From NCBI GenBank assembly GCA_022843585.1, contig JALHNJ010000010.1, positions 99,774 to 163,773 on the forward strand: DNA of 64,000 nucleotides, written 5' to 3'. This DNA comes from Chitinophagaceae bacterium. GTDB lineage: Bacteria > Bacteroidota > Bacteroidia > Chitinophagales > Chitinophagaceae. The notes under the pieces are model-generated. The model saw only the letters and a program-made list of their open reading frames with translations. It had not been told where the DNA came from and searched no databases. Within the stretch, counting starts at the first letter, position 1, and every line of letters begins with the position of its first letter. Both the position numbers and the translations under genes were made by a program. Below are positions 23,921 to 53,888 of the stretch, one piece after another.

Positions 23921-24005
23921 GGAGAGATGGCAGAGCGGTCGAATGCGGCGGTCTTGAAAACCGTTGAAGCGCAAGTTTCCGGGGGTTCGAATCCCTCTCT
24001 CTCCG
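23921..24005 (+). tRNA. tRNA-Ser (anticodon UGA)
   Basis: The acceptor stem is GGAGAGA (23921-23927) with TCTCTCC (23998-24004), and the discriminator is G. The anticodon stem GCGGT/ACCGT encloses loop CTTGAAA, giving anticodon TGA. A long variable arm typical of serine tRNAs follows. The T arm is GGGGG-TTCGAAT-CCCTC. CCA is not encoded. Its last 23 bases plus one are repeated exactly at 53865-53888, so the gene is the insertion site of the element to the right and was kept intact by element-supplied sequence. Confidence 0.96.
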
Positions 24006-24006
24006 C
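23983..24006 (+). repeat. attL: 24-bp direct repeat at the tRNA-Ser 3' end
   Basis: The 24 bases beginning GGGTTCGAATCCC and ending CTCTCCGC are identical to 53865-53888. They cover the T loop and 3' acceptor strand of tRNA-Ser, the standard core for tyrosine-recombinase integration. The bases on either side differ between the copies, so the repeat is bounded. Confidence 0.9.
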
Positions 24007-24164: not shown

Positions 24165-24267
24165 GAAACTTAACATAAACGACTTGTTTTTAACGATTTA
24201 CAAGAGCTGAACTCCCCTTTTCACTGATTTAAGAAACTAATTTTAAACCCTTAAAAGAGGAGTGTTT

Positions 24268-25485
24268 ATGGAAAAAAGTTTTGGCCTGCAGTTTTATCTC
24301 AGAAAAAGCAAATATGACAAGGATGGCGAGGTAGCAATTTATATGCGAATTACAGTAAATGGTGGATCATGTGAAATCAGTACCAAGAGAAGGTGTACGA
24401 CTTCAAATTGGAATACTAATGTCGGCAGAGTTGGTGGTAGAACAGAGTTTGCAAGATCACTAAATTCCGAACTTGACTTGTTTCAACGCAAAGTTTATGA
24501 GAAAAGAAAATTTCTCATAGACAATGATCACGAAGTAAGTGCATCAAACATTAAAATATTGATGCAGGGTGGCGAGCTTCATCAGCATAAATACATGCTG
24601 ATGGAAATTTTCAAACATCATAACCAGCAAATGAAAGAACTGGTAGGCCGTGAGTATGCTCCAGGAACCCATGAACGCTATACGACATCCTATAAGCATA
24701 CGTTGTCTTTTCTTCAATGGAAATACAATGTTGCAGACATTGATATCAACCAACTGAATTTTGAATTCATTACCGAGTATGAGTTCTGGTTGAAAAGCAC
24801 ACGTAAGTGCGATCATAATTCTACTATGAAATACCTGAGCAATTTCCGGAAGATAGTTAACCGATCTATCCGGAATGGATGGTTACAAAGAGACCCTTTC
24901 CTTGGTTTTAAAATGACAAAAAGAGAAGTAGAGAGAATTGCGCTTACTGAGTTTGAACTACAAGCACTTGCTTCCAAGCAATTCCCGACTGAACGGCTCA
25001 GCATCGTGCGGGACATCTTTCTGTTTAGCTGTTACTCCGGTCTTGCTTATGCTGATGTAAAAAAATTAAAGCGCTCCGAAATTGTTATAGGTATTGATGG
25101 TGAAAAATGGCTTATGAGTAAACGACAAAAGACCGATATAGCCGCCAGAATCCCATTATTACCGTCTGCGATGAGTATTGTAAATCGTTACGCAAATAAT
25201 CCCCAGTGCATTATGGAAGGCCGGGTATTACCTGTTTTGAGCAATCAAAAAATGAATGCTTATCTAAAAGAGATAGCTGACTTATGCGAAATCTCTAAAA
25301 AACTGACGTATCATATTGCCCGCCATACATTTGCCACTACTGTTACTTTAAGTAATGGAGTGCCTATAGAAACAGTGAGTAAAATGCTCGGTCACCGGAA
25401 TTTAAAAACCACACAGCATTATGCAAGAATACTGGATATAAAGATCAGTGAGGATATGAAGGAACTACGAAAGAAATTCTTATAA
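24268..25485 (+). CDS. Tyrosine recombinase (element integrase)
   Basis: The protein has about 405 residues. The open frame extends to GTG 24262, but AGAGGAG lies 5 nt before ATG 24268, which decides the start. It has an N-terminal SAM-like arm-binding part, a core-binding domain (about 100-200) and a catalytic domain (about 215-400). The motifs HIARHTFATT (H-x-x-R), LGHRNLKTTQHY and the nucleophile Tyr in HYARI are present. The first catalytic Arg is not in its usual place: the segment reads SCYSGLAYADV, a form common in Bacteroidota integrases related to the CTnDOT type. It lies next to attL, as expected for a tRNA-targeting element. Confidence 0.92.
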   Translation: MEKSFGLQFYLRKSKYDKDGEVAIYMRITVNGGSCEISTKRRCTTSNWNTNVGRVGGRTEFARSLNSELDLFQRKVYEKRKFLIDNDHEVSASNIKILMQGGELHQHKYMLMEIFKHHNQQMKELVGREYAPGTHERYTTSYKHTLSFLQWKYNVADIDINQLNFEFITEYEFWLKSTRKCDHNSTMKYLSNFRKIVNRSIRNGWLQRDPFLGFKMTKREVERIALTEFELQALASKQFPTERLSIVRDIFLFSCYSGLAYADVKKLKRSEIVIGIDGEKWLMSKRQKTDIAARIPLLPSAMSIVNRYANNPQCIMEGRVLPVLSNQKMNAYLKEIADLCEISKKLTYHIARHTFATTVTLSNGVPIETVSKMLGHRNLKTTQHYARILDIKISEDMKELRKKFL

Positions 25486-25644
25486 TCAAAAGCTTTACAA
25501 CTAATATGATTCAGGTTAATTGGCTATTTGATTGACAAGATTCCTGTATCGTTCATGATAAAAACGGTAAAAGATGAAGAAGACAGTATCCATAAATTTG
25601 GAATAATTATCTTTAAGACCATAGACAAAAACTTTCGCTTATCG

Positions 25645-26466
25645 ATGAATCAATCTTTACCAATAAAAGATAAAAGTGAATCAGGAAAGTCTATCAAAAT
25701 TGCATCATTCCGAAAGAATGTACGCAGAACAGAGCCTCATAAGCATAATAGCTATTTTGAAATTATTTATCTTTCTAAGGGGAAAGGTTTCCATACCATA
25801 GACTCACAACAATATCCTGTAACCCCACCTGTAGTTTTTATTGTAAGAAAAGAGCAAGTGCATAACTGGGAACTGTTTTCTGAACCTGATGGCTATGTTC
25901 TGATTCTGAAAAAATCTTTCGCTGACATAAGTCTTGATAAAGAACTGAAAAACCTGCTGATACAGGTGAGCGCCTTTTCTTATATCCTCCTGCAGGAAAA
26001 GAAAATGATAGAACACTTGTTTGAAATGCTGGTACAAGAATACAACGATGATTTGAATATCAACTCGCCTGTGATCGAGGGTCTGTTGAAGGCGCTGCTT
26101 GGCAAGATGCTGCAACTGGCAAAGCCTGTTCAGCCTCCAAAGAAAAAGGCATCTAACATTTGCCTGGAGTTCCGGGAAATACTCAGCCAGGACAAAGCGC
26201 TTAAAAACAGTGTTGCCCATTATGCCTGGTTGTTAAAAACCACCCCGCAAAACCTGAATTCAGTCTGCCGAAAAACAGTAAGTCAATCCGCGGCAGAAAT
26301 GCTGTCTGAATTTATTATAAGTGAAGCCAAGCGACTGCTGCTCTATACTGATATGACTGTTGCTGAAATATCACTATCGCTGGACTTCAAGGATAACTCA
26401 CATTTTGTAAAATATTTCAAACGGCATACAGGCCATACCCCCAATTATTTCAGAACCGCTGTTTAG
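25645..26466 (+). CDS. AraC-family transcriptional regulator
   Basis: The protein has 273 residues from ATG 25645 (MNQSLPIKDKS); the frame also has ATG 25555 and a TTG at 25528, and no ribosome site decides between them. An AraC-type cupin domain spans about 15-110 (EPHKHNSYFEIIYLSKGKG). A C-terminal pair of helix-turn-helix motifs (about 175-270) contains VAHYAWLLKTTPQNLNSVCR and ISLSLDFKDNSHFVKYFKRHTG. It probably controls the next three genes (lipoprotein, DoxX, TSUP), which start 90 nt downstream on the same strand. The effector is unknown. Confidence 0.88.
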   Translation: MNQSLPIKDKSESGKSIKIASFRKNVRRTEPHKHNSYFEIIYLSKGKGFHTIDSQQYPVTPPVVFIVRKEQVHNWELFSEPDGYVLILKKSFADISLDKELKNLLIQVSAFSYILLQEKKMIEHLFEMLVQEYNDDLNINSPVIEGLLKALLGKMLQLAKPVQPPKKKASNICLEFREILSQDKALKNSVAHYAWLLKTTPQNLNSVCRKTVSQSAAEMLSEFIISEAKRLLLYTDMTVAEISLSLDFKDNSHFVKYFKRHTGHTPNYFRTAV

Positions 26467-28438: not shown

Positions 28439-28852
28439 TCATTTTTTCAATTCATCTGCAAGATCCTGGATCGTTTTGGATTCAAAAAGCTCTTTCAGTT
28501 GTTGCTTAATAAATTTGTAACGTGAATGCATTGGACAGGGGCTTTTTTCAGAACACTGGTTCAAACCAAGCACGCATTTTTCCAGGGCTTCTTCTTCCCC
28601 CATCGCTTTCAGAATGAAACGTGCCGGCAATTTTTTGGCTTTCTCAGTAATATAAAAACCGCCATGTGGTCCGGGCACTGAACGGATGATTTTATTGTCC
28701 CTGGTAAGCAACTGGAGAATTTTCGCGGTAAACGATTGTGGAGAGTCGATAGCTTCTGCGATAGCCTGGATGCCGACTTTCCTTTCCTCTGAACTATTTT
28801 GAGCTATATAGATTGTCGCTCTTAACGCATACTCGGTTGCTTTTGAAAACAT
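28439..28852 (-). CDS. Rrf2-family regulator with three cysteines (NsrR/IscR-like), copy 1
   Basis: The protein has 137 residues from ATG 28852 (MFSKATEYALRA), the normal Rrf2 start; the open frame extends further upstream into the preceding gene. A winged-helix N-domain contains GIQAIAEAIDSPQSFTAKILQLL and GPHGGFYI. The Cys cluster ECVLGL-type reads EKCVLGLNQCSEKSPCPMH, the pattern that binds an Fe-S cluster in NsrR and IscR. In this family NO damages the cluster and releases DNA. It is the last gene of a norC-norB-queD-rrf2 operon, suggesting it controls that operon and the divergent nod gene. Confidence 0.9.
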   Translation of the reverse strand: MFSKATEYALRATIYIAQNSSEERKVGIQAIAEAIDSPQSFTAKILQLLTRDNKIIRSVPGPHGGFYITEKAKKLPARFILKAMGEEEALEKCVLGLNQCSEKSPCPMHSRYKFIKQQLKELFESKTIQDLADELKK

Positions 28853-28910
28853 AATATTATTTAATAGTAGTGGTGGAGGAATTCCACCGCAATTTATCAA
28901 AATACAGTCT

Positions 28911-29345
28911 TCAAAATAAGCCATTTATCCATTCTGCGTACGAATCTTTTGTTTCATAAAGTCTAAGTCTACCCAGGTTTACATGCTTTGGGAGCTTTTC
29001 ACAAATAACAGCCTGGATATACAAGAGCAAATTCTCAGCAGTGGGTTCTGCATTCCAAATGACCAGATTTTCCTGTGAGTGAATCCCTGGATTTTGGCTT
29101 AAGTAAGCCCTCGACAAAAGAAGTTTATGGTCAAGTACATCGATAATGGATGATTTAACCAACTGTTTTAATTCTTTAAAATCTATTATAAAACCCGGAA
29201 CAGCTATATAGCCCTTTTCCTGATTATCTGCAGATACAGTTACATGTAATTCATAAGAATGGCCATGTATATTTTTACAGGCACCCTGATAACCATTAAT
29301 GGCATGTGCCATTTCGAAATGAAATATTTTTGTGACGAGCAGCAT
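28911..29345 (-). CDS. 6-carboxytetrahydropterin/6-pyruvoyl-tetrahydropterin synthase family protein
   Basis: This 144-residue protein has the full family signature. The zinc ligands are H14 (FEMAHA), H27 and H29 (NIHGHSY), the catalytic Cys is C23 in the C-x3-HGH arrangement, and an acidic ETKDSYAEW comes near the end. QueD makes a queuosine precursor; relatives make biopterin-type cofactors. The gene lies in an NO-reductase operon, not with other queuosine genes, so a pterin product for another cofactor is possible. It follows norB by 26 nt. Confidence 0.88.
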   Translation of the reverse strand: MLLVTKIFHFEMAHAINGYQGACKNIHGHSYELHVTVSADNQEKGYIAVPGFIIDFKELKQLVKSSIIDVLDHKLLLSRAYLSQNPGIHSQENLVIWNAEPTAENLLLYIQAVICEKLPKHVNLGRLRLYETKDSYAEWINGLF

Positions 29346-29371
29346 ATATAAAAAATTAGTTGCCAGGCTAT

Positions 29372-30772
29372 TTATTCTATTTTAAAGGCAACAGATGAAT
29401 AGTACCGGGTTTGTATTTTTTCTTTTGTTGTTGTTTTGAAATAACAGAGCAACTGGTTTTTTAACAAGGGGTAGATAATGAATATGAAACCTGTCATCAT
29501 TATTGTTCCGGAAATAAAAAATACAATAAAGAATGGTCTTAACTGAAGCATCATACTGCTGAAAGGTATCTGAGAAGTACTTAACTGCCATCTTGCTTTC
29601 ATTACGCCTGCCCCGATTAAACTTATCCAGAAGATAAATAGCGACATATTAGCCAGCCAATATCCCCTGTTGAATAGTCTTTTATAAGGCTCAAAACTCC
29701 GGCAGGTATCATTGAGTATATCAAATGCAATAGCCAGCAATAAAAAGCTATTAATACCAATGGTTGCACCCATTGTATGAGCTACGGTAATATGTGTGCC
29801 ATGAGTGTACAGATTGATTCCTGGAATTGACATAAAAATTGCCAATAATAATGTTAAGAATATCCAGACATCAGCAGCTACCAGAAAGCGGTAGGCTGTT
29901 TTATGAAAATTTTTTCTAGCTGTACTGACAGAAGCCCTCCAGTTAAAAATAATTCTGCCAAGGATGAAGAGCTCTGTCATGCTGACTGCATAACTGATGT
30001 GTTTGATGTAATTATGAGTGGGTAATGTATAAATATGATGTCCCCAGTTAAACATCAGGTTGAATAACCCAGTAAAATAAAGCACAAAGGCTATACCTGA
30101 GTGACTATAGGTTTTACTATTGCTTATTTTATCCATCAGGAAAATACTGCTGCCGTAAATAAGCATATTCCATGAACCTACCATAGAACCGTACGATTTC
30201 CATTGCACCGTCATGTCGTTCACTACATTATTTCTGAAATAAGGGAATATCCATAAATAGGACTCGAGAAAGGTGAATAAAAAGAATACGATTCCTGTAA
30301 GCCACATCCACACATAAACGGGTTGTTTTCTGAACGAACCAATTGATTTTATAAAATTGATTAAAAACAGTACCCAACCTGCAACAATGGGTAATGCCAG
30401 TAGCGGATGAAATTCCCAATATTCCCTGCCGCCGAATATGCCGGCGCAATAGGAAATCAAAATAGCAATGATGGAAAGAATAAAAATGACCAATTGAACT
30501 TTTGTAAGTAACTGCGAATACATTTTTCTGCCGGTATGTTGCTGCAGATAAGTGAGAACACTACCCATCGCCCCAAAAATTATCCAGAAAACTACTGATG
30601 ATACATGCAGCGGCCTTACTTTCTCAAAAGACAGATTTTGTTTTAGAAATCCGGGTACCAGGTATTGCAGTCCGCCGGTTAATCCCCAAAACATTCCTGT
30701 GCCCAGCAGCAAAAGACCGGCAATTATAAATAGCCTAGATGTCGTTCCTTGCTTACTGTTCAATAGTGCCAT
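29372..30772 (-). CDS. NorB-like heme-copper oxidase family subunit with altered metal ligands
   Basis: The protein has 466 residues from ATG 30772 (MALLNSKQG); the frame runs on to 30847 inside norC. About twelve helices fit the heme-copper oxidase superfamily. Retained are H56 (heme b ligand, RPLHV), H245-H246 (NWGHH, FeB pair), E267 (22 residues later, as E280 in Pseudomonas NorB) and H332 (VAHTM, heme b3). The usual fourth position, AHGH, reads AHTM, so the second heme b ligand is Met or missing. The helix that should carry the first FeB His and nearby Glu (about 183-215) contains no His or Glu at all. It pairs with NorC upstream (20-base overlap). Activity as an NO reductase is therefore doubtful; it may be an altered NOR subfamily. 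Confidence 0.8.
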   Translation of the reverse strand: MALLNSKQGTTSRLFIIAGLLLLGTGMFWGLTGGLQYLVPGFLKQNLSFEKVRPLHVSSVVFWIIFGAMGSVLTYLQQHTGRKMYSQLLTKVQLVIFILSIIAILISYCAGIFGGREYWEFHPLLALPIVAGWVLFLINFIKSIGSFRKQPVYVWMWLTGIVFFLFTFLESYLWIFPYFRNNVVNDMTVQWKSYGSMVGSWNMLIYGSSIFLMDKISNSKTYSHSGIAFVLYFTGLFNLMFNWGHHIYTLPTHNYIKHISYAVSMTELFILGRIIFNWRASVSTARKNFHKTAYRFLVAADVWIFLTLLLAIFMSIPGINLYTHGTHITVAHTMGATIGINSFLLLAIAFDILNDTCRSFEPYKRLFNRGYWLANMSLFIFWISLIGAGVMKARWQLSTSQIPFSSMMLQLRPFFIVFFISGTIMMTGFIFIIYPLLKNQLLCYFKTTTKEKIQTRYYSSVAFKIE

Positions 30773-31154
30773 TGGTATTAATTGTAAAAGTTCTTGGGTC
30801 TGCGTTGCCCGATGCATCAATGTTTTGTAAATAAGCAAGTAAAGCATTCATTTCCTGTCCGTTCAGATGGAAATTGGGCATGGTGACAGTTCCGCTTTGC
30901 AAAAAAGCTGTGATGTAAGCAGGACCCTTAAGTGAATAAGTATTGGTAAGATCCGGGCCAAGGTATCCGCCTAACCCAAATACCTGGTGACAGGCATTGC
31001 AATTATATTGTTGCCATATCAATTTCCCTTTGCTGGTTTCTTCAGTAACTGTTTTCCCTTTCACTGGTAAGGATGAGTAAAGATGGAAGGAATAGAATAA
31101 GAAAGTAACTACCAAAGATGCCGCTGTAATATTTTTTAGCTTTCCGGAACGCAT
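30753..31154 (-). CDS. norC: NorC-like membrane-anchored cytochrome c subunit
   Basis: The protein has 133 residues from ATG 31154; the frame also opens at a TTG at 31181 within the operator. One N-terminal membrane anchor is at about 9-27. A heme c motif CNACH is at 52-56, in the NorC context GKLIWQQYNCNACH, with FGLGGYLGPDLTN after it. A Met axial ligand is in VTMPNF. In cNor this subunit passes electrons from periplasmic donors to NorB. Its stop codon overlaps the NorB-like start, so the two are made together. A minus-strand -7 element TAATTTTG (31186-31179) lies inside the shared palindrome. Confidence 0.87.
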   Translation of the reverse strand: MRSGKLKNITAASLVVTFLFYSFHLYSSLPVKGKTVTEETSKGKLIWQQYNCNACHQVFGLGGYLGPDLTNTYSLKGPAYITAFLQSGTVTMPNFHLNGQEMNALLAYLQNIDASGNADPRTFTINTNGTIEQ

Positions 31155-31166
31155 GGTAACGCCTGA

Positions 31167-31206
31167 AATAATTAAGGACAAAATTATCTTTAATTATTTA
31201 TATTTG
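31167..31206. promoter_or_regulatory. Bidirectional nod/norC promoter with 32-bp palindromic operator
   Basis: Arms AATAATTAAGGA (31167-31178) and TCTTTAATTATT (31187-31198) match in 11 of 12 positions around an 8-nt spacer. On the plus strand TATATTTG (31199-31206), a perfect TAnnTTTG, follows at once and serves nod. On the minus strand TAATTTTG (31186-31179) lies in the spacer, with TTGG 20 nt upstream at 31210-31207, and serves norC. The same palindrome recurs at 36669-36700. A bound regulator here would control both transcripts. Confidence 0.75.
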
Positions 31207-31221
31207 CCAATAATTTTTTTT

Positions 31222-33567
31222 ATGGCAAAGAGAAATTTTATCAGCTACCTGCTGAATCCCAAAAACTGGTGGCTGCCGTTGCTGATTATTTTTATAATCA
31301 GTATAGCAGGGGTAACGATGATTGCCGTGCATACTTACACAGAAGCCCCGCCCATTCCATTCTACGTTTCATCAAAGAATGAAACTGTTTTCTCAAAAGA
31401 GGATGTATTGGATGGACAGGCCGTGTTTCAGAAATATGCCCTGATGGAATACGGAAGTATGTTTGGCGATGGTGCCAACCGCGGACCGGACTATACAGCA
31501 GAAGCATTACATTATGTTTCTAAATACATGAATGATTTTTATCAGTCGCAATTGAAGGCAGATGCAAATGCTGATTTGCTTAAGAAAGGAATTGCTGAAC
31601 AGGTGAAGGCTGAAATAAAAAATAACAAGTATAGTAAGAATAACAGTGTATTACTTTCCGATGCACAGGCTTATGCGGTAAGTGAACTGATCAAATATTA
31701 CAATCAAAAATTTACCAATCCCTCTTCACCCGGTGCATTTAAACCATCTGGTTATATTACTGATGCCAATGAAATAAAATCGCTGACAGCTTTTTTCTTT
31801 TGGGGTTCATGGGTTTGTGGAGTAGAAAGACCTGGTGAGCATTACAGCTATACGCATAACTGGCCTTATGACCCGGCAGCAGGCAATACTCCCAGTGCTG
31901 CAATTATCCTCTGGAGCATTATTGGTTCACTCGGGTTAATCTTTGGTTTGGGGTTGGTGTTGTATTATCATGGTAAACTGGAAAAACTGGATGATAATGT
32001 TTATACAAACAATGCCCGGCCCTTTATGTCAAGGGGAGAAATACAAAAATTTCAACCTGATGCTGTACAAAAGTCCACTTACAAGTTTTTTTATGTTGCT
32101 ATTTTACTTTTTGCTGTACAGGTTTTAGCAGGCATTTTAACTGTTCATGATTTTGTAGGGTTTGTAAACTTTTTTGGGTTTAATATTTCTGAAACACTGC
32201 CAATTACAGTAACAAGAAGCTGGCATGTGCAATTATCCATTTTATGGATTTCTGCCTGCTGGATAGGTGCTTCATTTTTTATGATGTCACTTGTTTCTCC
32301 AAAACAATCTAAAAAACAGGTTACACTTATCAATGCTATTTTCTGGCTTACCATATTGTTGGTGGCTGGCTCATTCGCCGGAATGTTGCTTGGACCAAAA
32401 GGGATTATTGGAAAGAACTGGTATTGGCTTGGCCACCAGGGATGGGAATATGTAGAGCCTGGAAAACTATGGCAGATAATTCTCGGAGTTGTATTTATTA
32501 TATGGGCTATAACAATATACCGCGGCATTAAACCGGTAATGAAAATGAAACAACCATGGGCATTACCCAATTGGTTAGTGTATGCCACTTTCAGTATCAT
32601 TTTATTATTGATTTCCGGGTTTATTGCAACACCTAAAACCAATTTTGTGATTGCTGATTTCTGGCGATGGATGGTAGTACACATGTGGGCTGAAGCATTT
32701 TTTGAAGTGTTTACAACAGTATTGATTGGATATTTTATGGTGGTAATGGGTTTGGTAAGCAAGCAAGCTGTTATCCGTGTTATTTACTTAGCTACATTGT
32801 TGTTCCTTGGTTCTGGCTTACTTGGCATCTCTCATAATTTTTACTGGAATGGGAAACCGGTTTTCACAATGGCCCTTGGTTCTGTGTTTTCAACATTGCA
32901 GGTAATACCATTGGTATTGCTTACACTGGAAGCATGGCGGTTCAGTAAACTTCCTAAAGTGCTGGAGAATAACAACAAGGTTAATGGAGATTTGAATAAG
33001 CAATTCGGATTTTCAGAAGTGTTCCTGTTTCTGGTAGCAGTAAATTTCTGGAATTTCTTTGGTGCCGGTGTGTTGGGTTTTATCATCAACCTTCCCATCG
33101 CTAATTATTATGAACATGGTACTTACTTAACGGTGAATCATGGCCATGCTGCATTGATGGGTGTATATGGTAATCTTGCTTTGGCGGCTATATTGTTTTG
33201 TTGTCAGCTTTTATTTAAAGCTGATTGGTGGAAGCCCCGGCTCATCAAAAGGGCTTTCTGGTCAATCAACATTGGTCTGCTATTGATGGTATTTCTTGAT
33301 TTATTTCCTGCTGGAATTTATCAGTTTAAAACTGTAACAGATCAGGGATTATGGTATGCCCGCAGCCATGAATTTATTGAGAGCACCGGTTTTCAAACAC
33401 TCACCTGGCTTCGTATTGTTGGTGGTTCCATATTCACAATAGGCGGAGTGATACCGTTGGTTTGGTTTATTACCAGCAGAAGAAGAGGGTTAAAAAAGAA
33501 TGATCCTGGTATTTTAACTCAATCATTAAGCGATGAAAAAATTACAACACCTCTGGCTCAATATTAA
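31222..33567 (+). CDS. nod: Putative nitric oxide dismutase (qNor-like, H->N and E->Q active-site variant)
   Basis: The protein has 781 residues from ATG 31222 (MAKRNF); upstream frame to 31153 lies in the operator. It has the qNor layout: N-terminal helix, a periplasmic cytochrome-c-like fold without heme motif (about 40-220), then about twelve helices. Heme ligands are present (H335 in RSWHVQL; H640 and H642 in VNHGHAAL). FeB ligands: H487 and E491 are kept (VVHMWAEAF), H538 is kept, but the next His is N539 (ISHNFYW) and the conserved Glu 22 residues later is Q560 (STLQVIP). These two changes are the diagnostic pair of Nod from Methylomirabilis and strain HdN1. The quinol-site Glu after H309 is G313. 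Proposed reaction: 2 NO -> N2 + O2. First gene of a five-gene plus-strand run. Confidence 0.85.
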   Translation: MAKRNFISYLLNPKNWWLPLLIIFIISIAGVTMIAVHTYTEAPPIPFYVSSKNETVFSKEDVLDGQAVFQKYALMEYGSMFGDGANRGPDYTAEALHYVSKYMNDFYQSQLKADANADLLKKGIAEQVKAEIKNNKYSKNNSVLLSDAQAYAVSELIKYYNQKFTNPSSPGAFKPSGYITDANEIKSLTAFFFWGSWVCGVERPGEHYSYTHNWPYDPAAGNTPSAAIILWSIIGSLGLIFGLGLVLYYHGKLEKLDDNVYTNNARPFMSRGEIQKFQPDAVQKSTYKFFYVAILLFAVQVLAGILTVHDFVGFVNFFGFNISETLPITVTRSWHVQLSILWISACWIGASFFMMSLVSPKQSKKQVTLINAIFWLTILLVAGSFAGMLLGPKGIIGKNWYWLGHQGWEYVEPGKLWQIILGVVFIIWAITIYRGIKPVMKMKQPWALPNWLVYATFSIILLLISGFIATPKTNFVIADFWRWMVVHMWAEAFFEVFTTVLIGYFMVVMGLVSKQAVIRVIYLATLLFLGSGLLGISHNFYWNGKPVFTMALGSVFSTLQVIPLVLLTLEAWRFSKLPKVLENNNKVNGDLNKQFGFSEVFLFLVAVNFWNFFGAGVLGFIINLPIANYYEHGTYLTVNHGHAALMGVYGNLALAAILFCCQLLFKADWWKPRLIKRAFWSINIGLLLMVFLDLFPAGIYQFKTVTDQGLWYARSHEFIESTGFQTLTWLRIVGGSIFTIGGVIPLVWFITSRRRGLKKNDPGILTQSLSDEKITTPLAQY

Positions 33568-33639
33568 AATACGCAGCGTCTGGCGGGTGCAGCTTCTTTT
33601 GGGATTAATGAAAACATATTTTAGAAAAGTATTTTCTAT

Positions 33640-35226
33640 ATGATGAAAACAATAGCCGAAAAAAAGCCCCTTGTGTATTCCTGCTCCGGTTGTTCCAGTG
33701 CGGCACAGATGGCCAATTATCTGGCAATAAAAATGGACAGAGCTGGAGTAGCAGAAATGTCCTGCATTGCAGGTATTGGCGGCAATGTAAAAAAAATAGT
33801 ACACACGGCTTTGTCAGGAAGAAAAATTATTACAATTGATGGTTGCCCGCTGGCTTGTTCCAAGGAGTGTTTGGGGAATCATAACATCATCCCCGATATG
33901 CAATTTGAGTTAACAAGTTTTGGGGTGAGCAAAAAGCAGCATGAAGATTTTGATATAGAGGAGGCCAATCAGCTATTAATGAAAATGGAAGCTCTTATAA
34001 GCGAAAAAAATACAAAAATATCCCTGCGGGAATTTCAGGCTTCCGAAACCCCTCTGGATGGAAACTCGATATTAAATCCAACCACATTCACTGAAAAATC
34101 CAGCAATATCATCATTAAAGAGGTGGTAAATAAAAAACAACTCAGTAAATTTATTGATTTCCCCTTCCGCTTATATCAGGGAAACAAATATTATGTTCCT
34201 CAATTAAAAAAAGATATTGAAGATACATTTAGCAAAAATAAAAACCCTGCATTTGAGTTCTGTGAAGCGAAATACTGGCTGGCTTATAAAGGAAATAAAG
34301 TGGTAGGCCGTATAGCAGCTATTGTCAATCATGCGTTTATTGAAAAGTGGAAAAATAAATACATGAGGTTTGGCTGGATAGATTTTGAGGAAGATGAAGA
34401 AATTACAAAAGCTCTTTTAGGGCAAGCAGAAATGTGGGCAAAAGAGAAAGGAATGACTGCCGTTCATGGGCCACTTGGGTTTACCAATTTTGATTATGCC
34501 GGTTTATTAATAGATGGGTTTGACAAATTGGGCACTTTTGCAACTATATATAACCACCCTTATTATTCTTTGTTTATTGAAAGGGCAGGTTACAGCAAAG
34601 ATGTTGACTGGGTAGAGTACAAGATTAAACTACCCGATGTGGTGCCGGAAAAGCTAGAGAAAATACCAGCCATTGTTCAAAAGAGATATCAACTGAAGGT
34701 GGTGAGATTGGAAACTACAAAAGATCTATTGTCCTATGCAAAAGAAATTTTCAGGTTAATCAATTCTGCTTATGCTGATTTATATGGCATGGTGCCGCTT
34801 AATGAAAAGCAAATTGAATATAACACGAGGAAATATTTATCGTTTATCCGTCCAGATTTTGTTTCATTGGTTTTAGATAAGAATGGTGAATTGGCTGCAG
34901 TTGGAATTACGATGCCTTCTTTGTCTCTAGCCCTGCAAAAAGCAAAAGGAAGTCTTTACCCATTTGGTTTTATTCATGTCCTGAAAGCGTTTAAAAAAAA
35001 CAATCTTGCTGATTTATGCCTCGTAGCAGTGAGAAAGGATTTACAGGGAAAAGGCGTTAATGCAATTCTTATGAATGAGCTAACAAAGTCTTACATAAAA
35101 AATGGAATTGAATATGCAGAATCAAATCCCGAGCTGGAGGAGAACACAAAAGTTCAGTCTATATGGGAATACTATGATACGGTGCAGCATAAGCGGCGCA
35201 GGTGTTATATAAAACATTTACAGTAA
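33640..35226 (+). CDS. Fusion of a DGC-domain cysteine protein with a GNAT-like C-terminal region
   Basis: This 528-residue protein is one open frame. Residues 1-125 form a DGC domain with CSGC (15-18), MSCIAGIGG and the DGCPLACSKECL signature, presumed to bind zinc or another metal. DGC proteins are often found near denitrification genes. Residues about 155-528 resemble a YghO-like GNAT family: LYQGNKYYVPQ at the start, AVHGPLGFTNFDYAGLLIDG in the middle, and RKDLQGKGVNAILMNEL for acyl-CoA binding near the end. The linker (126-150) is polar. It lies 72 nt after nod and 7 nt before the thioesterase gene. Confidence 0.78.
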   Translation: MMKTIAEKKPLVYSCSGCSSAAQMANYLAIKMDRAGVAEMSCIAGIGGNVKKIVHTALSGRKIITIDGCPLACSKECLGNHNIIPDMQFELTSFGVSKKQHEDFDIEEANQLLMKMEALISEKNTKISLREFQASETPLDGNSILNPTTFTEKSSNIIIKEVVNKKQLSKFIDFPFRLYQGNKYYVPQLKKDIEDTFSKNKNPAFEFCEAKYWLAYKGNKVVGRIAAIVNHAFIEKWKNKYMRFGWIDFEEDEEITKALLGQAEMWAKEKGMTAVHGPLGFTNFDYAGLLIDGFDKLGTFATIYNHPYYSLFIERAGYSKDVDWVEYKIKLPDVVPEKLEKIPAIVQKRYQLKVVRLETTKDLLSYAKEIFRLINSAYADLYGMVPLNEKQIEYNTRKYLSFIRPDFVSLVLDKNGELAAVGITMPSLSLALQKAKGSLYPFGFIHVLKAFKKNNLADLCLVAVRKDLQGKGVNAILMNELTKSYIKNGIEYAESNPELEENTKVQSIWEYYDTVQHKRRRCYIKHLQ

Positions 35227-36668: not shown

Positions 36669-36710
36669 AATAATTAAGGACATTATTATCCTTAATTATT
36701 GATATCTTTA
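36669..36710 (+). promoter_or_regulatory. 32-bp palindromic operator and -7 element for the 602-residue gene
   Basis: Perfect 12-bp arms AATAATTAAGGA (36669-36680) and TCCTTAATTATT (36689-36700) flank an 8-nt spacer. TATCTTTA, one base from TAnnTTTG, follows at 36703-36710. The left arm is identical to that of the nod/norC operator and the spacing to the -7 element is nearly the same. The palindrome covers the -33 region, so the bound protein would block or replace normal promoter recognition. Confidence 0.75.
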
Positions 36711-36813: not shown

Positions 36814-38622
36814 ATGTATTATTCTCCACAGCATAAATTTCACATTCCCGTAATGGGGTTAGCTTATACCGTTGATACACCAATCAAAGTAGCCCGGTTT
36901 GGCATCTCATCCGTTATTTCAATTATCGAGGACAGGTTAGTAGAAATGATGCGCAGTCATTATTATCCAACTATCAATAAGGAGTATTTCCCTATCAGTA
37001 CCCATGAAGAGGACTATCGGGCCAAAAGAATTACAGACTACCTGAACCTCGTAAATATAATTGTGCAGGCACAGGTTGAAAAACTCAAGAGAGCTGCATT
37101 TGAAGCAGGTTCAGAAATAGTAAAATATTTTGAAATGCTGCCGGATGATAGTACGCTGAAACAATTGTACCTGCAAATGATGGGAGCAAGTAATCAGCCG
37201 GACAAGAAAAGAATGGAGGATTATCTGCGGACACAAATAAGACCTGGTAGTATTGATGTAAACATAATGACAAAAACAGACCGGAATAATTATAGTAGTG
37301 ATGGCGAATTGCTGGAAGACGGTTCAGATGCGGTAGCAGCTTTGAGAGGATATGCAAAAAGCAGCCTCACCAATTCTTCTGTTGTTTTTTCTGCTGGTAT
37401 GAACCCCAGGTTATATAATTACCTGGAAAAATGTAATGAATTTGATGTAAATGAAGATGGAGGGTTTACAAAAAAAGTAATTATAAAGGTTAGTGATTAT
37501 CGTTCTGCATTAATCCAGGGAAAATTTTTAGCCAAGAAGGGTATTTGGGTAAGTGAATTCAGGATCGAATCCGGCCTGAATTGTGGTGGTCATGCTTTTG
37601 CAACGGATGGATATTTGATGGGACCTATACTCGAAGAATTCAAATCAAATAAACAGGAACTTATTGATACGCTTTTTGAAATCTATAATGCTGCCTTGCT
37701 GAAAAAAAATAATCAAAAATTTATTTACCCCCCCAGGATGGTATTTTCCGCACAAGGAGGTATTGGCACTTATGACGAAGATGACTTTTTGCACCGGCAT
37801 TACAATATCGAAAGCACCGGATGGGGAACACCTTTTTTGTTGGTACCGGAAGCTACCACCGTTGATGAACCCACATTGAAATTACTATGTGCAGCAAAAG
37901 AAAAAGACGTAGTACTGAGCCGCAATTCTCCTTTGGGGGTCAGACTCCATTATCTGAAAGGGACTACTGCTGAAAACGAAAAGTTATTGCGTATAAAAAA
38001 TGGAAAACCAGGTAGTCCCTGTACCGAAAAGCATCTTGGGTTTAATACAGAGTTTACTAAAGAGCCTATTTGTACAGCATCACATAAGTATCAAAAAATA
38101 AAAATTGCACAGTTGCAATCGCTTAATCTGCCGGAGCCTGAATACAAAAGGCAACTAAATGATGTTTTGGGTAAAGAATGTTTATGTGTGGGCCTGAGTA
38201 ATGCAGCGGCAATCAACTATAAACAAACTTTTATTAAGAAACTGACTGCGGTGACAATTTGTCCGGGGCCGAATATTGCTAATTTCTCTAAAGTAGTTTC
38301 GCTGCAAACGATGACTGACCATATTTACGGACGAAAAAATATTGTTACCAATGCCAACAGACCTCATATGTTTATTGCGGAACTGCATTTATATATTGAT
38401 TACCTGAAAGAGCAATTGGAGGAGGATACCAGTACCGGACAATTTGCTAAAAAGAAAAAATACTATGTTTCCTTTTATCAAAACCTCAGAGAAGGTATAA
38501 TGTATTATCGCCGGTTGCCGGGTATATCCCCCACAGACAGGAATTTGTTTGTTAAAGCCCTGTATTATGCCGGAGTAGAACTGGACTCCTTAAATTATCA
38601 ATACGAAATTAATAATATCTGA
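36814..38622 (+). CDS. Unrecognised 602-residue cysteine-containing protein in NO regulon
   Basis: No family is recognised. The protein has no signal peptide or membrane segment and should be cytoplasmic. Conserved-looking Cys lie in motifs: C257 (ESGLNCGGHAFATDG), C403 (GSPCTEK), C420 (PICTAS), C456 and C458 (GKECLCVGLSNAAAI) and C483 (TICPGPNIANF). The glycine-rich GLNCGGH and PGPN loops suggest a cofactor site, perhaps Fe-S or flavin, in a TIM-barrel-like context; this is a guess. It stands alone between a palindromic operator and the lipid genes. The operator links it to NO response. Confidence 0.75.
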   Translation: MYYSPQHKFHIPVMGLAYTVDTPIKVARFGISSVISIIEDRLVEMMRSHYYPTINKEYFPISTHEEDYRAKRITDYLNLVNIIVQAQVEKLKRAAFEAGSEIVKYFEMLPDDSTLKQLYLQMMGASNQPDKKRMEDYLRTQIRPGSIDVNIMTKTDRNNYSSDGELLEDGSDAVAALRGYAKSSLTNSSVVFSAGMNPRLYNYLEKCNEFDVNEDGGFTKKVIIKVSDYRSALIQGKFLAKKGIWVSEFRIESGLNCGGHAFATDGYLMGPILEEFKSNKQELIDTLFEIYNAALLKKNNQKFIYPPRMVFSAQGGIGTYDEDDFLHRHYNIESTGWGTPFLLVPEATTVDEPTLKLLCAAKEKDVVLSRNSPLGVRLHYLKGTTAENEKLLRIKNGKPGSPCTEKHLGFNTEFTKEPICTASHKYQKIKIAQLQSLNLPEPEYKRQLNDVLGKECLCVGLSNAAAINYKQTFIKKLTAVTICPGPNIANFSKVVSLQTMTDHIYGRKNIVTNANRPHMFIAELHLYIDYLKEQLEEDTSTGQFAKKKKYYVSFYQNLREGIMYYRRLPGISPTDRNLFVKALYYAGVELDSLNYQYEINNI

Positions 38623-38713: not shown

Positions 38714-39382
38714 ATGTACTTCGAAAAAATTCATAACAAAGGTCAGGCCCGACTGTTTAAAAGTGGGTTTCTTGAAGCATTGACAAAAGCACATCCTTTG
38801 CTTATTTGGTGTATGTATCTCCCGGTTATTGCCTATATGCTTTATTACAGCCATATCAGGCTTGAATATGCTACGCTGAAAATTGTCCTGGTTTTTCTGG
38901 GAGGGTTATTTGTCTGGAGTTTCTTTGAATACCTGGCTCACCGCTTTCTTTTTCATTGGCAAACGGAAAACAAAACCGGAAAAAAAATTGTTTACATTTT
39001 TCATGGCAACCATCATCATTATCCCAGGGATACTACCCGCCTGTTTATGCCGCCATTACCCAGTCTGATTATTTCCGGATCTATATTTGGCTTAATGTAT
39101 CTTATAATGGGACAAAATGCTTTTATATTTTTCCCGGGCTTTCTGTTTGGCTACCTGTTGTATGGTAGTATCCATTATGCCATCCATGCCTGGAACCCTC
39201 CATTCAAATGGATGAAACCACATTGGCGCAATCATCACCTGCATCATTACAAAGATGAACACATGGGTTATGGAGTAAGCTCCACATTGTGGGATCATGT
39301 TTTTGGTACCATGTTCGATTTGAAACAGGAAAAGGAAGATAAAGAGAAAGTAAAAGAACTGATGTATGGGAAAGAGAAATAG
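38714..39382 (+). CDS. Fatty-acid/sterol hydroxylase family membrane di-iron protein
   Basis: This 222-residue protein has about four membrane helices and the His-box set of the family: HRFLFH, HGNHHHYP, HYAIHAW and HHLHHYKDEH. These ligate two irons. It resembles the fatty acid 2-hydroxylase branch (FA2H/SCS7) more than sterol desaturases, judging by the HRFLFH-x-HGNHHHYPRD pattern. The reaction needs O2 and a reductant in the membrane. It lies between the 602-residue gene and the broken desaturase, both on the plus strand. Confidence 0.87.
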   Translation: MYFEKIHNKGQARLFKSGFLEALTKAHPLLIWCMYLPVIAYMLYYSHIRLEYATLKIVLVFLGGLFVWSFFEYLAHRFLFHWQTENKTGKKIVYIFHGNHHHYPRDTTRLFMPPLPSLIISGSIFGLMYLIMGQNAFIFFPGFLFGYLLYGSIHYAIHAWNPPFKWMKPHWRNHHLHHYKDEHMGYGVSSTLWDHVFGTMFDLKQEKEDKEKVKELMYGKEK

Positions 39383-39458: not shown

Positions 39459-40499
39459 ATGAAAACACTGACTACAATTACAGACCCGGTGTATGCTGAA
39501 CCTCAAAAATTCAGCTAGTATGAAAAATTCTGGCTAAAATATATAAATGATAAAAGAGACCTTCCTTTTATTCATTTGCTTACTGGTATTCATATCCTTG
39601 TAATACCTGTTGCTATTTTGTTGTATACTTCTGTTTTGCAGGGATGGTACTGGTGGCTGGTTTATATTCCTTACTTCTATGTGTCGCAGATGTATTTTAA
39701 GGGTCGGTTTGGTTTGATGCTGCATTGTATCGTTCACCGCAAATTGTTTAAAAAAAATTATACATGGCTATACCGCTGGATTATTTGGTTTGTCTGTCCT
39801 TTTTTTGGCCACACTCCTGAAACTTACTTTGTGCATCACATGGGTATGCACCATGTTGCCAATAATATGATGGATGATGCCAGCAGTACATTGCCCTATC
39901 AGCGGGACAGCCTTCGTGGTTTTTTAGCTTATGTTGGCCGGTTTCTTATCCTGGGAGTCCGGGATACTTTCATGTATTTTTTCAGAAACAAGAGAAAGAA
40001 ATTTTATATGCGTCTTCTGGCAGGAGAAATGTCTTTCTATTTTTTCTGCGTGGGAATGAGTTTTGTAAACTTTAAAGCCACTCTTTTTATTTTCATTATT
40101 CCGTTTGTATTTGCCAGGGTAGTGATGATGCTGGGCAACTGGACGCAACATGCTTTTGTAAATCCCATTGACCTGGAAGACAACTCTATTAATTGTATCA
40201 ATACAAAATACAATAGAATCTGCTGGAACGATGGCTATCATGCAGTGCATCATAACCGCCCGGCATTGCACTACACTGATATACCCGGTGAGTTTCTGAA
40301 AAGTAAAGAATTTTTTGTCAAACAGAGAACACTCACTTTCGACGGCATTCATTATCTGCACATATTTGCCTGGCTGATGATGAAGCGGTATGATAAGCTT
40401 GTCAAGAATGTCGTAAACATAGATAATATGTTTGCAAACGACGAAGAAGCAATTGCTTTAATGAAGGAAAGAACAAAGAAAATGAAACTGATTGCCTAA
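39459..40499 (+). pseudogene. Fatty acid desaturase gene interrupted by an in-frame TAG
   Basis: The frame opens at ATG 39459 (MKTLTTITDPVYAEPQKFS) and meets TAG at 39516-39518. It then continues in the same frame as YEKFWLKYINDKRDLPF and runs to 40499. The downstream 324 codons form a membrane desaturase with His boxes HCIVHRK, HHMGMHHVANN and HAVHHNRP. The text before and after the stop reads as one protein of about 346 residues, so a single nonsense change is the likely cause. Readthrough, internal initiation (TTG 39576) or a sequencing error are alternatives. The enzyme, if made, needs O2 and di-iron. Confidence 0.75.
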
Positions 40500-40641: not shown

Positions 40642-41601
40642 ATGCAAACTATAACAGAAAACATCCTCAATGTAACCCTGCTGGAACCCCGGCAAAAACA
40701 CCCCACTATTTTTGTTCGCTTTGATGAATTAGTTGAAGGAGAGAGTTTAACGATACATAATGACCATGACCCCAAACCATTGTATTATCAATTGCTGGGC
40801 GAAAGAGGAAATATATTTGAGTGGCAATATTTAGAGCAAGGGCCTGAATGGTGGAAAGTAAAAATCAGCAAACGCATTTCTGGTGAAAATGATGAAACAC
40901 TTGGGCAAATTGCTGCCAAAGATTTACGCAAAGCCCAGATATTTAAAAAATATGGATTAGATTTTTGCTGTGGGGGAAAGAAAACGGTGAAAGAAGCCTG
41001 TAAAGAAAAAGGGCTGGATGTAACAAAGATTGAACAGGAGCTACAACAGGCTGATAAAATGACGGCTTCCCGTCCCTTGCCTTATAATGACTGGAGCCTG
41101 GATTTCCTGTCTGATTATATTGTAAACACCCATCATAGCTATGTGCAAAAAAACCTTCCCGACATAAGGGCTTATGCAGAAAAAGTAATGAAGGTACATG
41201 GCAACCGGCATTCTGAACTATTACCCATCTATCAGTTAGTGGAAGAAGTAAATGCAGAATTAACGGCACACATGGTTAAAGAGGAAAAAGTATTATTCCC
41301 TTACATCAAAGAACTGGTAGCTTCAAGCAAAAATGCACAGCCATTACATGCCGCACATTTCGGGTCAGTGCAAAATCCAATCAACATGATGGAGATGGAG
41401 CATGAAATGGTGGGAAAAAACCTGGCACAAATCAGGGAGTTGACTAATAATTATTCATTGCCGGAAGATGCATGTGCCAGCTACAGCTTGCTGTACCGTA
41501 TGCTGGATGAGTTTGAAGAAGACTTGCATTTGCATGTGCACTTGGAGAACAATATTCTGTTTCCAAAAGCACTGGAAATAGAAAATAGATTGAATCCATG
41601 A
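40642..41601 (+). CDS. ric: Iron-sulfur cluster repair di-iron protein (RIC/ScdA/YtfE) with N-terminal DUF2249
   Basis: This 319-residue protein has three parts. Residues 1-80 are a DUF2249-like domain (FVRFDELVEGESLTIHNDHDP). Residues 85-140 are the ScdA N-domain with DFCCGGKKTVKEAC. Residues 155-315 are a hemerythrin-like di-iron domain with His and Glu ligands (HHSYVQKNL, HMVKEEKVLFPYI, MEHEMVGKNL, HLHVHLENNILFP). RIC repairs Fe-S clusters damaged by NO and oxidants in the cytoplasm. The DUF2249 fusion is longer than Escherichia YtfE (about 220). A palindrome and -7 element lie just upstream, and a terminator lies just downstream. Confidence 0.93.
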   Translation: MQTITENILNVTLLEPRQKHPTIFVRFDELVEGESLTIHNDHDPKPLYYQLLGERGNIFEWQYLEQGPEWWKVKISKRISGENDETLGQIAAKDLRKAQIFKKYGLDFCCGGKKTVKEACKEKGLDVTKIEQELQQADKMTASRPLPYNDWSLDFLSDYIVNTHHSYVQKNLPDIRAYAEKVMKVHGNRHSELLPIYQLVEEVNAELTAHMVKEEKVLFPYIKELVASSKNAQPLHAAHFGSVQNPINMMEMEHEMVGKNLAQIRELTNNYSLPEDACASYSLLYRMLDEFEEDLHLHVHLENNILFPKALEIENRLNP

Positions 41602-42980: not shown

Positions 42981-44267
42981 ATGTTTGCAGGAAGCGATAA
43001 TGATATATTAGTCAAAAACACTACTCACAAAGTAGTATTGCCCTTTTATTTGTATGCGGCATTATCATTCCTGATTTGTACTATTATTTTGTTTTTTTCT
43101 GCTAAAGCATTTACACAACATTACTTTCATCCTCATATTTTAGCTATTACCCATATCATGGCCCTGGGTTGGGGATCTATGATAATATTAGGTGCCAGCC
43201 ACCAGCTGGTGCCAGTATTAATTGAAGGAAGCTTGTATAGCACAAAACTGGCATATTGTTCCTTTATATTAGCTGCTGTCGGTATCCCAATCATGGTGTA
43301 CGGTTTTTATATTTTCGATATGGGCTGGCCGGCCAAATGGGGGGGCAGACTTGTACTATTGGCTGTGCTTTGCTATGTTATTAACCTGGCAGTAAGCATT
43401 GTAAAAAGTAAAACAAAAAATGTACATTCCTATTTTATATTTACTGCTTCGCTATGGTTACTTCTCACAGCTTTTTTGGGATTAATGCTGGTGTATAATT
43501 TTAGTTACTCTTTTTTACCAAAAGAATCATTGAAATATCTGCCGCTACATGCACATATTGGTGTTATTGGCTGGTTTCTTCTATTGGTAATTGGTGTAGG
43601 TTCCCGGTTGATACCGATGTTTTTGATATCAAATTACATTAATCCTAAACTGTTGTGGTTGATATATTTACTGATTAATGTCGGACTGGTATTTTTCTTA
43701 ATAAAATTTCTTTATTACCCCTACGGCTCTTACAATATACCAATTGGTGCACTTCTTCTTGCATTGATTTTCTTTGGAAAGTATTGCTATAGTACTTACA
43801 GGCAGCGTATCCGGAGACAAGTAGATGAGCAAATGAAAATTTCTCTTTTATCAGTAATGATGATGTTATTACCTGTTATTTTCCTGGTAAGCATAACAGG
43901 ATGGTTGCTGGCTGATAAACGGAATGTGCAAATTGTACTTATCTATGGCTTTGTTATTTTCTTTGGATGGATAACAGTTATCATATTTGGCATGACGTTT
44001 AAAACATTGCCTTTTATTGTCTGGAATAAAGTATATCACCAAAAAGCCGGGCTGGGTAAAACACCAAACCCGAAAGACCTGTTTAATAACAGGATATTTA
44101 TAGTGATGGCTCTGACTTATCATTCTGGTTTTATACTTTTCATTGCCGGGACTTATCTTGTTGATGTATTTATATTGAATTTTGCAACCACTTATTTAAT
44201 ACTGTCTGCAGTACTGTATAATTATAATGTGATAAAAGTGTTACTGCATAAACCGGCAAAAGAATGA
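42981..44267 (+). CDS. NnrS-like or oxidase-subunit-I-like multi-helix membrane protein
   Basis: This 428-residue protein has about twelve membrane helices. Histidines lie at the ends of helices in ITHIMALGWGSM, LGASHQLVPVL and LPLHAHIGVIGWFLLLVIGVGSRLIPMF. The last is like the heme-binding motif of NnrS, a heme- and copper-containing protein found with NO reductases. It has no complete heme-copper oxidase ligand set. It overlaps the PaaD-like gene by four bases. Its start MFAG is repeated as a vestige at 38625. Confidence 0.78.
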   Translation: MFAGSDNDILVKNTTHKVVLPFYLYAALSFLICTIILFFSAKAFTQHYFHPHILAITHIMALGWGSMIILGASHQLVPVLIEGSLYSTKLAYCSFILAAVGIPIMVYGFYIFDMGWPAKWGGRLVLLAVLCYVINLAVSIVKSKTKNVHSYFIFTASLWLLLTAFLGLMLVYNFSYSFLPKESLKYLPLHAHIGVIGWFLLLVIGVGSRLIPMFLISNYINPKLLWLIYLLINVGLVFFLIKFLYYPYGSYNIPIGALLLALIFFGKYCYSTYRQRIRRQVDEQMKISLLSVMMMLLPVIFLVSITGWLLADKRNVQIVLIYGFVIFFGWITVIIFGMTFKTLPFIVWNKVYHQKAGLGKTPNPKDLFNNRIFIVMALTYHSGFILFIAGTYLVDVFILNFATTYLILSAVLYNYNVIKVLLHKPAKE

Positions 44268-44589: not shown

Positions 44590-45021
44590 ATGCTGAGCCT
44601 TACCTGCAAGACTGCTATTAAAGCTGTTATATACCTGGCTTCTAAATATGAGTCGGGAGTAAGAACAGGCATTAAAGAGATCGCTGAATTTATAGAAGCC
44701 AGTGAACATACAGTTGGAAAAATGCTGCAAATATTGGTTAAGGAGAAAGTCATTAACAGTGCAAAGGGTCCCACTGGCGGCTTTTACGTAACAGTGAAAC
44801 AAAAAAATCAACCCATTATCAATATCGTGGAAGCAATAGATGGCAAAGAAGTTTTTAAACAATGCGGATTAGGCTTGAGCAAATGTTCTTCCACACATCC
44901 CTGCCCAATACACAATGATTATAAAGGTGTCAGGGATTTATTTGAAAAATTATGCAGGGATAAAAAAATGACTGACTTATGCGAACCGGTTAATAATGGG
45001 TTGGCTTACCTGTTTGGTTAA
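44590..45021 (+). CDS. Rrf2-family regulator with three cysteines, copy 2
   Basis: This 143-residue protein has the Rrf2 winged-helix N-domain (MLSLTCKTAIKAVIYLA, IKEIAEFIEASEHTVGKMLQ, GPTGGFYV). A Cys cluster KQCGLGLSKCSSTHPCPIH has the same spacing as in copy 1. The two copies therefore probably both carry Fe-S clusters and share a fold. It is the last gene of the lipoprotein-DUF2249-NnrS-PaaD operon. With copy 1 it is the obvious candidate to bind the repeated palindromes; which one binds where cannot be told by reading. Confidence 0.9.
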   Translation: MLSLTCKTAIKAVIYLASKYESGVRTGIKEIAEFIEASEHTVGKMLQILVKEKVINSAKGPTGGFYVTVKQKNQPIINIVEAIDGKEVFKQCGLGLSKCSSTHPCPIHNDYKGVRDLFEKLCRDKKMTDLCEPVNNGLAYLFG

Positions 45022-51217: not shown

Positions 51218-51286
51218 GCGATGTTGGTTTTATAATTCTGAATAAAGCCTATTAGGTTACTGGTGAATCCAGATTTCAGAATCAGC

Positions 51287-53864: not shown

Positions 53865-53888
53865 GGGTTCGAATCCCTCTCTCTCCGC
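53865..53888 (+). repeat. attR: 24-bp copy of the tRNA-Ser 3' end
   Basis: This is identical to 23983-24006, starting GGGTTCGAATCCC. The upstream sequence does not form a tRNA, so this is only the 3' fragment left by integration. It marks the right boundary of the element. Confidence 0.9.

Follow-up and report, generated by a model that had tools for sequence, protein, structure and literature searches.

Nitric oxide dismutases (Nods) are putative enzymes proposed to convert two molecules of NO to N2 and O2. Muricauda ruestringensis, ‘Candidatus Methylomirabilis oxyfera’ and strain HdN1 form one cluster of putative Nods (PMC3413370), so that Nod in Bacteroidota, represented by Muricauda, has been in print since 2012. 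Other reports place nod in groundwater metagenome-assembled genomes (MAGs) of Sediminibacterium and Algoriphagus (PMC10264387), Nod in Bacteroidota MAGs (PMC12285268), and a Bacteroidota Nod clade, with its gene neighborhoods, in lake enrichments (PMC13386854); the latter source also mentions NsrR near nod in FEN-1191 and Cecembia calidifontis. A viral NOD-like NorB has been reported as well (PMC8115048). Here we describe a putative Nod gene (31222..33567, plus strand) from a Chitinophagaceae bacterium (GCA_022843585.1), located in a 64,000-nucleotide stretch of contig JALHNJ010000010.1 (positions 99,774 to 163,773), hereafter the window. The original prediction, made from the sequence alone, proposed that this gene encodes a Nod carried by a Bacteroidota mobile element and named a tree of Nod and NO reductase sequences as one way to check it. 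What is added here is the island that serves as the vehicle of nod and a conserved control site upstream of the gene.

Catalytic and quinol-site residues of the putative Nod

The open reading frame (ORF) is intact and encodes a protein of 781 amino acids with the Pfam domains PF22085 (NorB cytochrome-c-like domain) and PF00115 (COX1). The best PDB match in a sequence search is 3AYF, the quinol-dependent NO reductase (qNOR) of Geobacillus (Gs), with an E-value of 2.4e-161; the same entry is the best match of the AlphaFold2 model (mean predicted local distance difference test score, pLDDT, of 79; template modelling score, TM, of 0.85, at 37% identity). The translation lacks a CxxCH motif, i.e., the N-terminal cytochrome-c-like domain is without heme c.

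The alignment to 3AYF and a MAFFT alignment both bear out the residues named in the original prediction. H487 and E491, the FeB His and Glu, are retained, as is H538; N539 (codon AAT) occupies the position of an FeB-ligand His (Gs H560), and Q560 (CAG), 22 residues past H538, that of the catalytic-centre Glu (Gs E581). The spacings of 51 and 22 residues are likewise as claimed; they equal those between Gs H508, H559 and E581. H508 and H559 are numbered as in PMC10286720. A qNOR is recognized by three FeB His residues and the catalytic Glu; in the window protein, N539 and Q560 stand at two of these positions. At the quinol site, two of the four named residues are replaced, the Glu, as had been predicted (Gs E332 to G313), and also the Asp (Gs D746 to G735), and the His and Phe remain (Gs H328 = H309, Gs F336 = F317), so that the site is lost only in part.

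Conservation and phylogeny

The His-Asn pair and the Gln (HN/Q) are found in the query and in the best 120 of 1961 matches (81–100% identity). In a sample of 395 Bacteroidota genomes, 38 have a match at E<=1e-50; among the 30 loci read (8 weaker matches fall outside), five with 55–100% identity have HN/Q, and 25 with at most 39% identity have the His-His pair and the Glu (HH/E). A wider set of 104 rows, made up of the query plus 103 loci that encode 95 distinct proteins (with some genomes represented twice), contains HN/Q in 101 rows; two sequences end short of the site, and one (L072, 38% identity) has HH/E. The ratio of nonsynonymous to synonymous substitution rates (dN/dS) of nod against four relatives is 0.047–0.060, an approximate value given that dS exceeds 1, and the comparison with a fifth relative (L128) yielded no dS.

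The phylogenetic tree includes the query, 72 loci thinned from the 103, and 18 qNORs of our choice (12 loci from Bacteroidota and 6 from plasmids), with five trait columns omitted. A single branch splits the 73 HN/Q proteins from the 18 HH/E qNORs with a support of 100 in the Shimodaira-Hasegawa-like approximate likelihood ratio test (SH-aLRT), computed by the quick method without bootstrap, in a tree where the program flagged long qNOR branches and a long-branch join. The window protein thus lies outside the qNORs, on the Nod branch together with Muricauda, in agreement with the original prediction; M. oxyfera and HdN1 are not included in this tree, and its link to them runs through the cluster described in PMC3413370. 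Of the two main Nod subclades, one holds Chitinophagaceae and Cyclobacteriaceae sequences, among them those of Hydrotalea flava, Ferruginibacter, Algoriphagus and Cecembia and the window protein itself; the three quinol positions that were read are mostly H/G/G in it. The other holds Saprospiraceae and Flavobacteriaceae sequences, mostly with N/N-or-D/A, and contains three Muricauda loci, in which the quinol-site His is also gone. Both diagnostic substitutions, the separate clade and the qNOR-type fold support the assignment of the window protein to the putative Nod family, as originally proposed.

Two Nods encoded on contigs labelled Acidobacteriota (Thermoanaerobaculia; L075) and Chlorobiota (L096) group among the Saprospiraceae and Flavobacteriaceae Nods, which reflects either transfer or misbinning. 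The relatives from the contig scan (best 80 of 288) are mostly from Bacteroidota and do not include M. oxyfera or HdN1; in a second protein search, the named matches are from Bacteroidota. Named strains with Nod relatives are Hydrotalea flava CCUG 51397, Flavihumibacter solisilvae 3-3 and Algoriphagus aquaeductus T4, and within the Chitinophagaceae, nod is present in 20 of the 294 genomes searched. A tblastn search of 72,556 plasmid records returned 318 records, all below 60% identity, and all six loci checked have HH/E. Among viral contigs, one relative was found in five pattern matches, a Nod-like fragment with 38% identity on a 231-kb viral contig (L178, IMGVR_UViG_3300035492_000331); the missing segment, between window-protein residues 433 and 592, includes the catalytic part.

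The integrative element

The nod gene sits on an inserted 29.9-kb integrative element in a tRNA-Ser gene (tga; 23921..24006, plus strand, identified with ARAGORN). The last 24 bases of this gene (23983..24006, plus strand), the left copy of the attachment (att) direct repeat, recur perfectly at 53865..53888 (plus strand), which marks the right end. A tyrosine integrase (24262..25485, plus strand; PF13102, PF17293, PF00589) is encoded next to the left copy, and near the right end, between the att copies, there are genes for a MobA/VirD2-type relaxase (48354..49271, minus strand; PF03432), a NikA-like mobilization protein (49268..49630, minus strand; PF21983), a primase-like protein with a CHC2 zinc finger and a Toprim domain (49738..50700, minus strand), and an excisionase-type HTH_17 protein (51287..51619, minus strand; PF12728). 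Two genomes of the same genus (G675 and G670) have an empty site, in which the tRNA-Ser directly neighbors both the ABC gene of the left flank and the LacI gene of the right flank; when the flanks of the window are joined, they align with these loci (L154 and L155) through the junction, at 539 of 539 positions, with 91.5% and 89.4% identity. The att repeats, the integrase, the relaxase and the empty sites identify the locus as an integrative element, so that the mobile element of the original prediction is confirmed and its exact ends are located; from its gene content, the element is probably mobilizable. An AraC-family regulator (25528..26466, plus strand) belongs to the cargo. PADLOC matches defence models at three places on the element: AbiEii-type (46728–47444, minus strand), DUF1016 (PDC-S02; 50720–51217, minus strand) and Fic (SoFic-like; 51774–52823, plus strand).

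Part of the element recurs in a genome of another genus (G600). Contig L050 of 12,953 bp (‘Chitinophagales bacterium UWPOB_CHIT5’; L143 is the same contig) carries window positions 28028–34007 (5981 bp) at 99.83% identity and 50825–53196 (2372 bp) at 99.96%, directly joined. The 16.8 kb of cargo and mobilization genes that separate these segments in the window are absent at the 34007/50825 junction and form a variable region. The att sequence of L050 lies in its own tRNA-Ser, with surroundings that are only 74% like those of the window over 264 columns, and its integrase is 54% identical to that of the window. Given the near identity of the shared segments in a genome whose tRNA-Ser flank and integrase differ, the module that consists of the genes for an Rrf2 regulator, a 6-pyruvoyl-tetrahydropterin-synthase-like (PTPS-like) protein, a NorBC-like pair and Nod has, to judge from this comparison, moved recently. 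Among the 103 nod loci, integrase relatives are limited to L050/L143 and L063 (40% identical over 166 amino acids) and relatives of the window’s relaxase are absent; carriage on an integrated element is seen at the window locus and L050 only.

A conserved predicted operator and Rrf2 regulators

A conserved inverted repeat (31167..31200), the predicted operator, is located between the divergent starts of norC-like and nod, some 50 bp upstream of the nod ATG. A consensus scored out of 26, with a cut-off of >=18, was compared with 24 distinct upstream regions of nod genes whose proteins share >=62% identity. Of these regions, 21 score 18–26, and for each of the 21 none of 200 letter shuffles reaches its score; the consensus was derived in part from the tested set, so that these figures overstate independence, and the dyad test below leans on it less. 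The operator starts 52–66 bp before nod in 20 of the 21 scoring regions and at 87 bp in one, and the top score in 96 control windows inside nod is 16. In the dyad test, made on 21 distinct sequences (22 rows; L148 and L147 excluded, L069 kept), changes on both sides occur at 9 of the 14 dyad pairs, in 18 cells, with 0 of 500 shuffles as high; for further dyad pair types, 23 of 500 shuffles are as high, and all measures drop when the dyad is shifted by 1–3 columns. Some operators are poorly symmetric, e.g., L066 (5/13) and L146 (7/13). Hydrotalea carries the same operator. After the dyad sits a sequence that resembles the Bacteroidota -7 box (TAnnTTTG).

A second operator copy with perfect 12-bp arms (36669..36700) precedes the ORF for a conserved 602-amino-acid protein (36814..38622, plus strand), the distance from its core to the ORF start being 141 bp; at locus L052, a relative of this ORF has a nod-type operator motif 137 bp upstream.

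The window encodes an Rrf2-family regulator with a three-Cys motif (28439..28924, minus strand; PF02082), the predicted Fe-S/NO sensor of nod; a second three-Cys Rrf2-family regulator is encoded at 44590..45021 (plus strand; PF02082). In a count of neighbors within 6 kb of nod across 95 loci with distinct nod proteins (one of them the HH/E outlier L072, and many on short contigs), an Rrf2-family gene is present in 60, in 38 of these at most 1.3 kb upstream. The motif C-x(4-8)-C-x5-C occurs in all 68 Rrf2 proteins of these loci and in both Rrf2 proteins of the window. Because the conserved dyad upstream of nod adjoins a three-Cys Rrf2 gene, NO-responsive control of nod is predicted.

Neighboring genes

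Divergently from nod, the window encodes a NorC-like membrane cytochrome c (30753..31154, minus strand; the listed ORF extends to 31181, with the start likely at 31154), a divergent NorB-like heme-copper subunit (29372..30847, minus strand; PF00115) and the PTPS-like protein (28911..29345, minus strand; PF01242). The NorB-like protein aligns to cNOR NorB. In all nine rows aligned (the window copy and eight others, one of which is the G600 copy), the first FeB-ligand position lacks a His (YG[S/A]), the HH pair and Glu are kept, and HxM replaces the HxH of cNOR. From these residues, the NorB-like protein may represent an uncharacterized heme-copper group paired with a NorC-like cytochrome. In the 6-kb count over 95 loci, the PTPS-like gene is found in 18, RIC-type genes and the 602-amino-acid family in 14 each, a short DGC-type gene in 12, NrdG-like in 11, NrdD-like in 10, NorC-like in 9 (3 of them not adjoining nod), NorB-like and FNR-like in 8 each, and truncated-hemoglobin-like in 7; the NrdG, NrdD, FNR, DGC and hemoglobin names were assigned by eye from sequence starts.

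Downstream of nod is the gene for a DGC-domain/GNAT fusion protein (33640..35226, plus strand; PF08859, PF00583), full-length relatives of which form a cluster of at most five loci. The 602-amino-acid protein has no Pfam or NCBIfam match, a PDB profile search gives a single match with an E-value of 0.034, and its AlphaFold model is poor (mean pLDDT 55). The family has at least 7999 relatives at E<=1e-10 (all 7999 scored candidates matched). An Fe-S cluster repair di-iron protein of the RIC/YtfE/ScdA type, a marker of NO stress, is encoded at 40642..41601 (plus strand; TIGR03652 above cut-off). A 428-amino-acid membrane protein with a weak heme-copper-oxidase-like match (42981..44267, plus strand) adjoins DUF2249/DUF1858 and RIC genes.

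Fatty-acid hydroxylase and desaturase families are O2-dependent. The island encodes one of each, a fatty-acid-hydroxylase family protein (38714..39382, plus strand; PF04116) 5.1 kb past nod and a fatty-acid-desaturase family protein (39576..40499, plus strand; PF00487) 6.0 kb past it. A general link of nod to these lipid enzymes was considered and is unsupported: hydroxylase relatives occur in 2 of the 103 nod loci (L148 and L127) and desaturase relatives in none, in a search in which 43 loci span at least 20 kb and 60 are shorter; the 6-kb neighbor count could not by itself test the desaturase. In L148, a fatty-acid-hydroxylase relative (9331–9888, 38% identity to that of the window) lies directly before nod.

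Host genome and source of NO

The host genome contains four COX1-family genes, namely Nod, the NorB-like gene and two others that are taken as terminal oxidases. It has nosZ (PF18764), no NirK above the cut-off (best score 32 bits) and no NirS (19 bits over 64 positions). As neither NirK nor NirS is clearly present, the host probably obtains its NO externally; the search was confined to these two and did not extend to further NO sources such as NrfA or NarG. Among 40 genomes, which were chosen rather than drawn at random (20 with nod and 20 others, of which G675 is unchecked for lack of nod), nosZ is present in 19 of the 20 nod genomes vs 12 of the 20 others, and NirK scores above the cut-off in 2 of 20 vs 3 of 20.

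Proposed function and alternatives

Taken together, these observations incline us, with moderate confidence, to the explanation that the window protein is a member of the Nod family, carried by the 29.9-kb tRNA-Ser element, and that it is predicted to be induced by NO and to convert external NO to N2 and O2 independently of external electron donors. At the modified heme b3/FeB site, two NO molecules would be joined to yield N2 and O2 with no outside electrons. NO would damage the Fe-S cluster of Rrf2, which would derepress nod and, divergent from it, the NorBC-like genes; Nod would then remove NO, probably from neighboring denitrifiers, and the O2 produced would pass to the host’s own terminal oxidases. 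Dismutation is a prediction for the window protein and is unproven for any Nod; whether Nods make O2 is the central question.

Several points weigh against this explanation. The retained quinol-site His and Phe make electron entry possible, a cytochrome-c-bearing NorBC-like pair adjoins nod in the window, and, with the lipid enzymes all but missing from the other nod loci, there is no conserved O2-consuming partner. The tree lacks M. oxyfera, HdN1 and M. ruestringensis, its published anchor being other species of the genus Muricauda. With respect to regulation, the operator is weak in 1 of the 24 upstream regions (L069, score 16, 3 of 200 shuffles as high), missing in two (L148 and L147) and mostly not recognizable in Nod loci below 62% identity; the nod-adjacent Rrf2 protein scores 29.4 bits against an NCBIfam NsrR cut-off of 182 and is filed only as Rrf2-family. 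For G600, the link to another genus depends on a MAG contig made up mostly of element sequence, the binning of which is less sure than the difference in host flanks. Opposing results on Nod exist, and it has never been isolated and characterized, according to PMC13386854.

The alternative that survives best keeps the same chemistry and changes what is selected. Under it, nod would be mainly a detoxification gene that scavenges NO and belongs, with RIC and Rrf2, to a regulon induced by NO, any O2 being incidental. We consider this a plausible contender of somewhat less than even probability, given the RIC gene on the element, the RIC-type cluster at 14 of the 95 loci, the Rrf2 neighbors with their operator, and a host without clear NirK or NirS; none of the results separates it from a role in O2 supply, and the anaerobic ribonucleotide-reductase-like neighbors at about 10 of the 95 loci, named by eye, suggest no more than an anoxic setting.

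Rather unlikely is a modified NO reductase that would reduce NO to N2O with electrons delivered through the quinol-side His region or by the NorC-like cytochrome, NosZ then clearing the N2O and the Asn/Gln pair altering kinetics rather than the reaction. The presence of H309 and F317, the window-type NorB-like gene near nod at 8 of the 95 loci, and the frequency of nosZ in nod genomes are compatible with such an enzyme, and PMC8115048 relays the view that some NOD-like NorB proteins are possible reductases. However, the residues equivalent to Gs E332 and D746 are gone, the FeB-ligand His and the catalytic Glu are replaced in all 101 readable Nod rows, the Muricauda loci are without the quinol-site His as well, and the NorBC-like pair is absent from most nod loci.

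Under a broader version of the dismutase explanation, O2 production from NO would be an accessory trait that is induced by NO and spreads horizontally among Bacteroidota that do not denitrify. A single operator would control both nod and the NorBC-like pair divergent from it, neighbors would supply the NO, and the O2 would feed the terminal oxidases as well as the lipid desaturase and hydroxylase of the element; in this full form, we regard it as unlikely. Finally, an ordinary qNOR with sequencing errors at the two codons, or a decayed pseudogene, has a negligible probability, nothing in its favor having been found and both being refuted by the residues shared with the best 120 matches and in 101 of 104 rows, the open frame, a dN/dS of about 0.05, and the separate clade.

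If an integrated element does carry the production of O2 from NO from one genus to another, taxonomy would not predict the trait. Together with the predicted NO/Rrf2 control, the named strains listed above offer a handle for inducing nod outside slow methanotroph enrichments.

Comparison with known systems

The window protein resembles the Nods of M. oxyfera (DAMO_2434/2437), HdN1 and M. ruestringensis, as described in PMC3413370, in the His-to-Asn and Glu-to-Gln replacements, the qNOR-type fold, the heme-less N-terminal domain and the eroded quinol site. Unlike these proteins, it retains the quinol-site His and Phe, and its gene is accompanied by an Rrf2 regulator on an integrated element rather than located near methane monooxygenase. 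Algoriphagus, one of the genera of the groundwater MAGs, has loci in the same subclade as the window Nod; the available passages of PMC10264387 do not mention an element or operator. For the loci of PMC13386854, no clear O2-consuming neighbor was found, and the passages at hand mention no mobile element or operator. No report of nod on an integrative element was found in the open-licence literature, outside which several key papers lie; the passages of PMC6636425, PMC10130571, PMC10359470 and PMC8115048 describe none.

With quinol-dependent NO reductases (3AYF, 6QQ5, and locus L031 of Cupriavidus pHG1), the window Nod shares fold and length, and it differs from them in the replacement of the FeB-ligand His, the catalytic Glu, and the quinol-site Glu and Asp. 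Mobilizable elements of Bacteroidota that integrate into tRNA genes typically have a tyrosine integrase at one end, a relaxase, a mobilization protein, a primase-like protein, an HTH_17 gene and att repeats. The window element resembles this general type in all these features and is distinguished from it by a cargo for NO metabolism.

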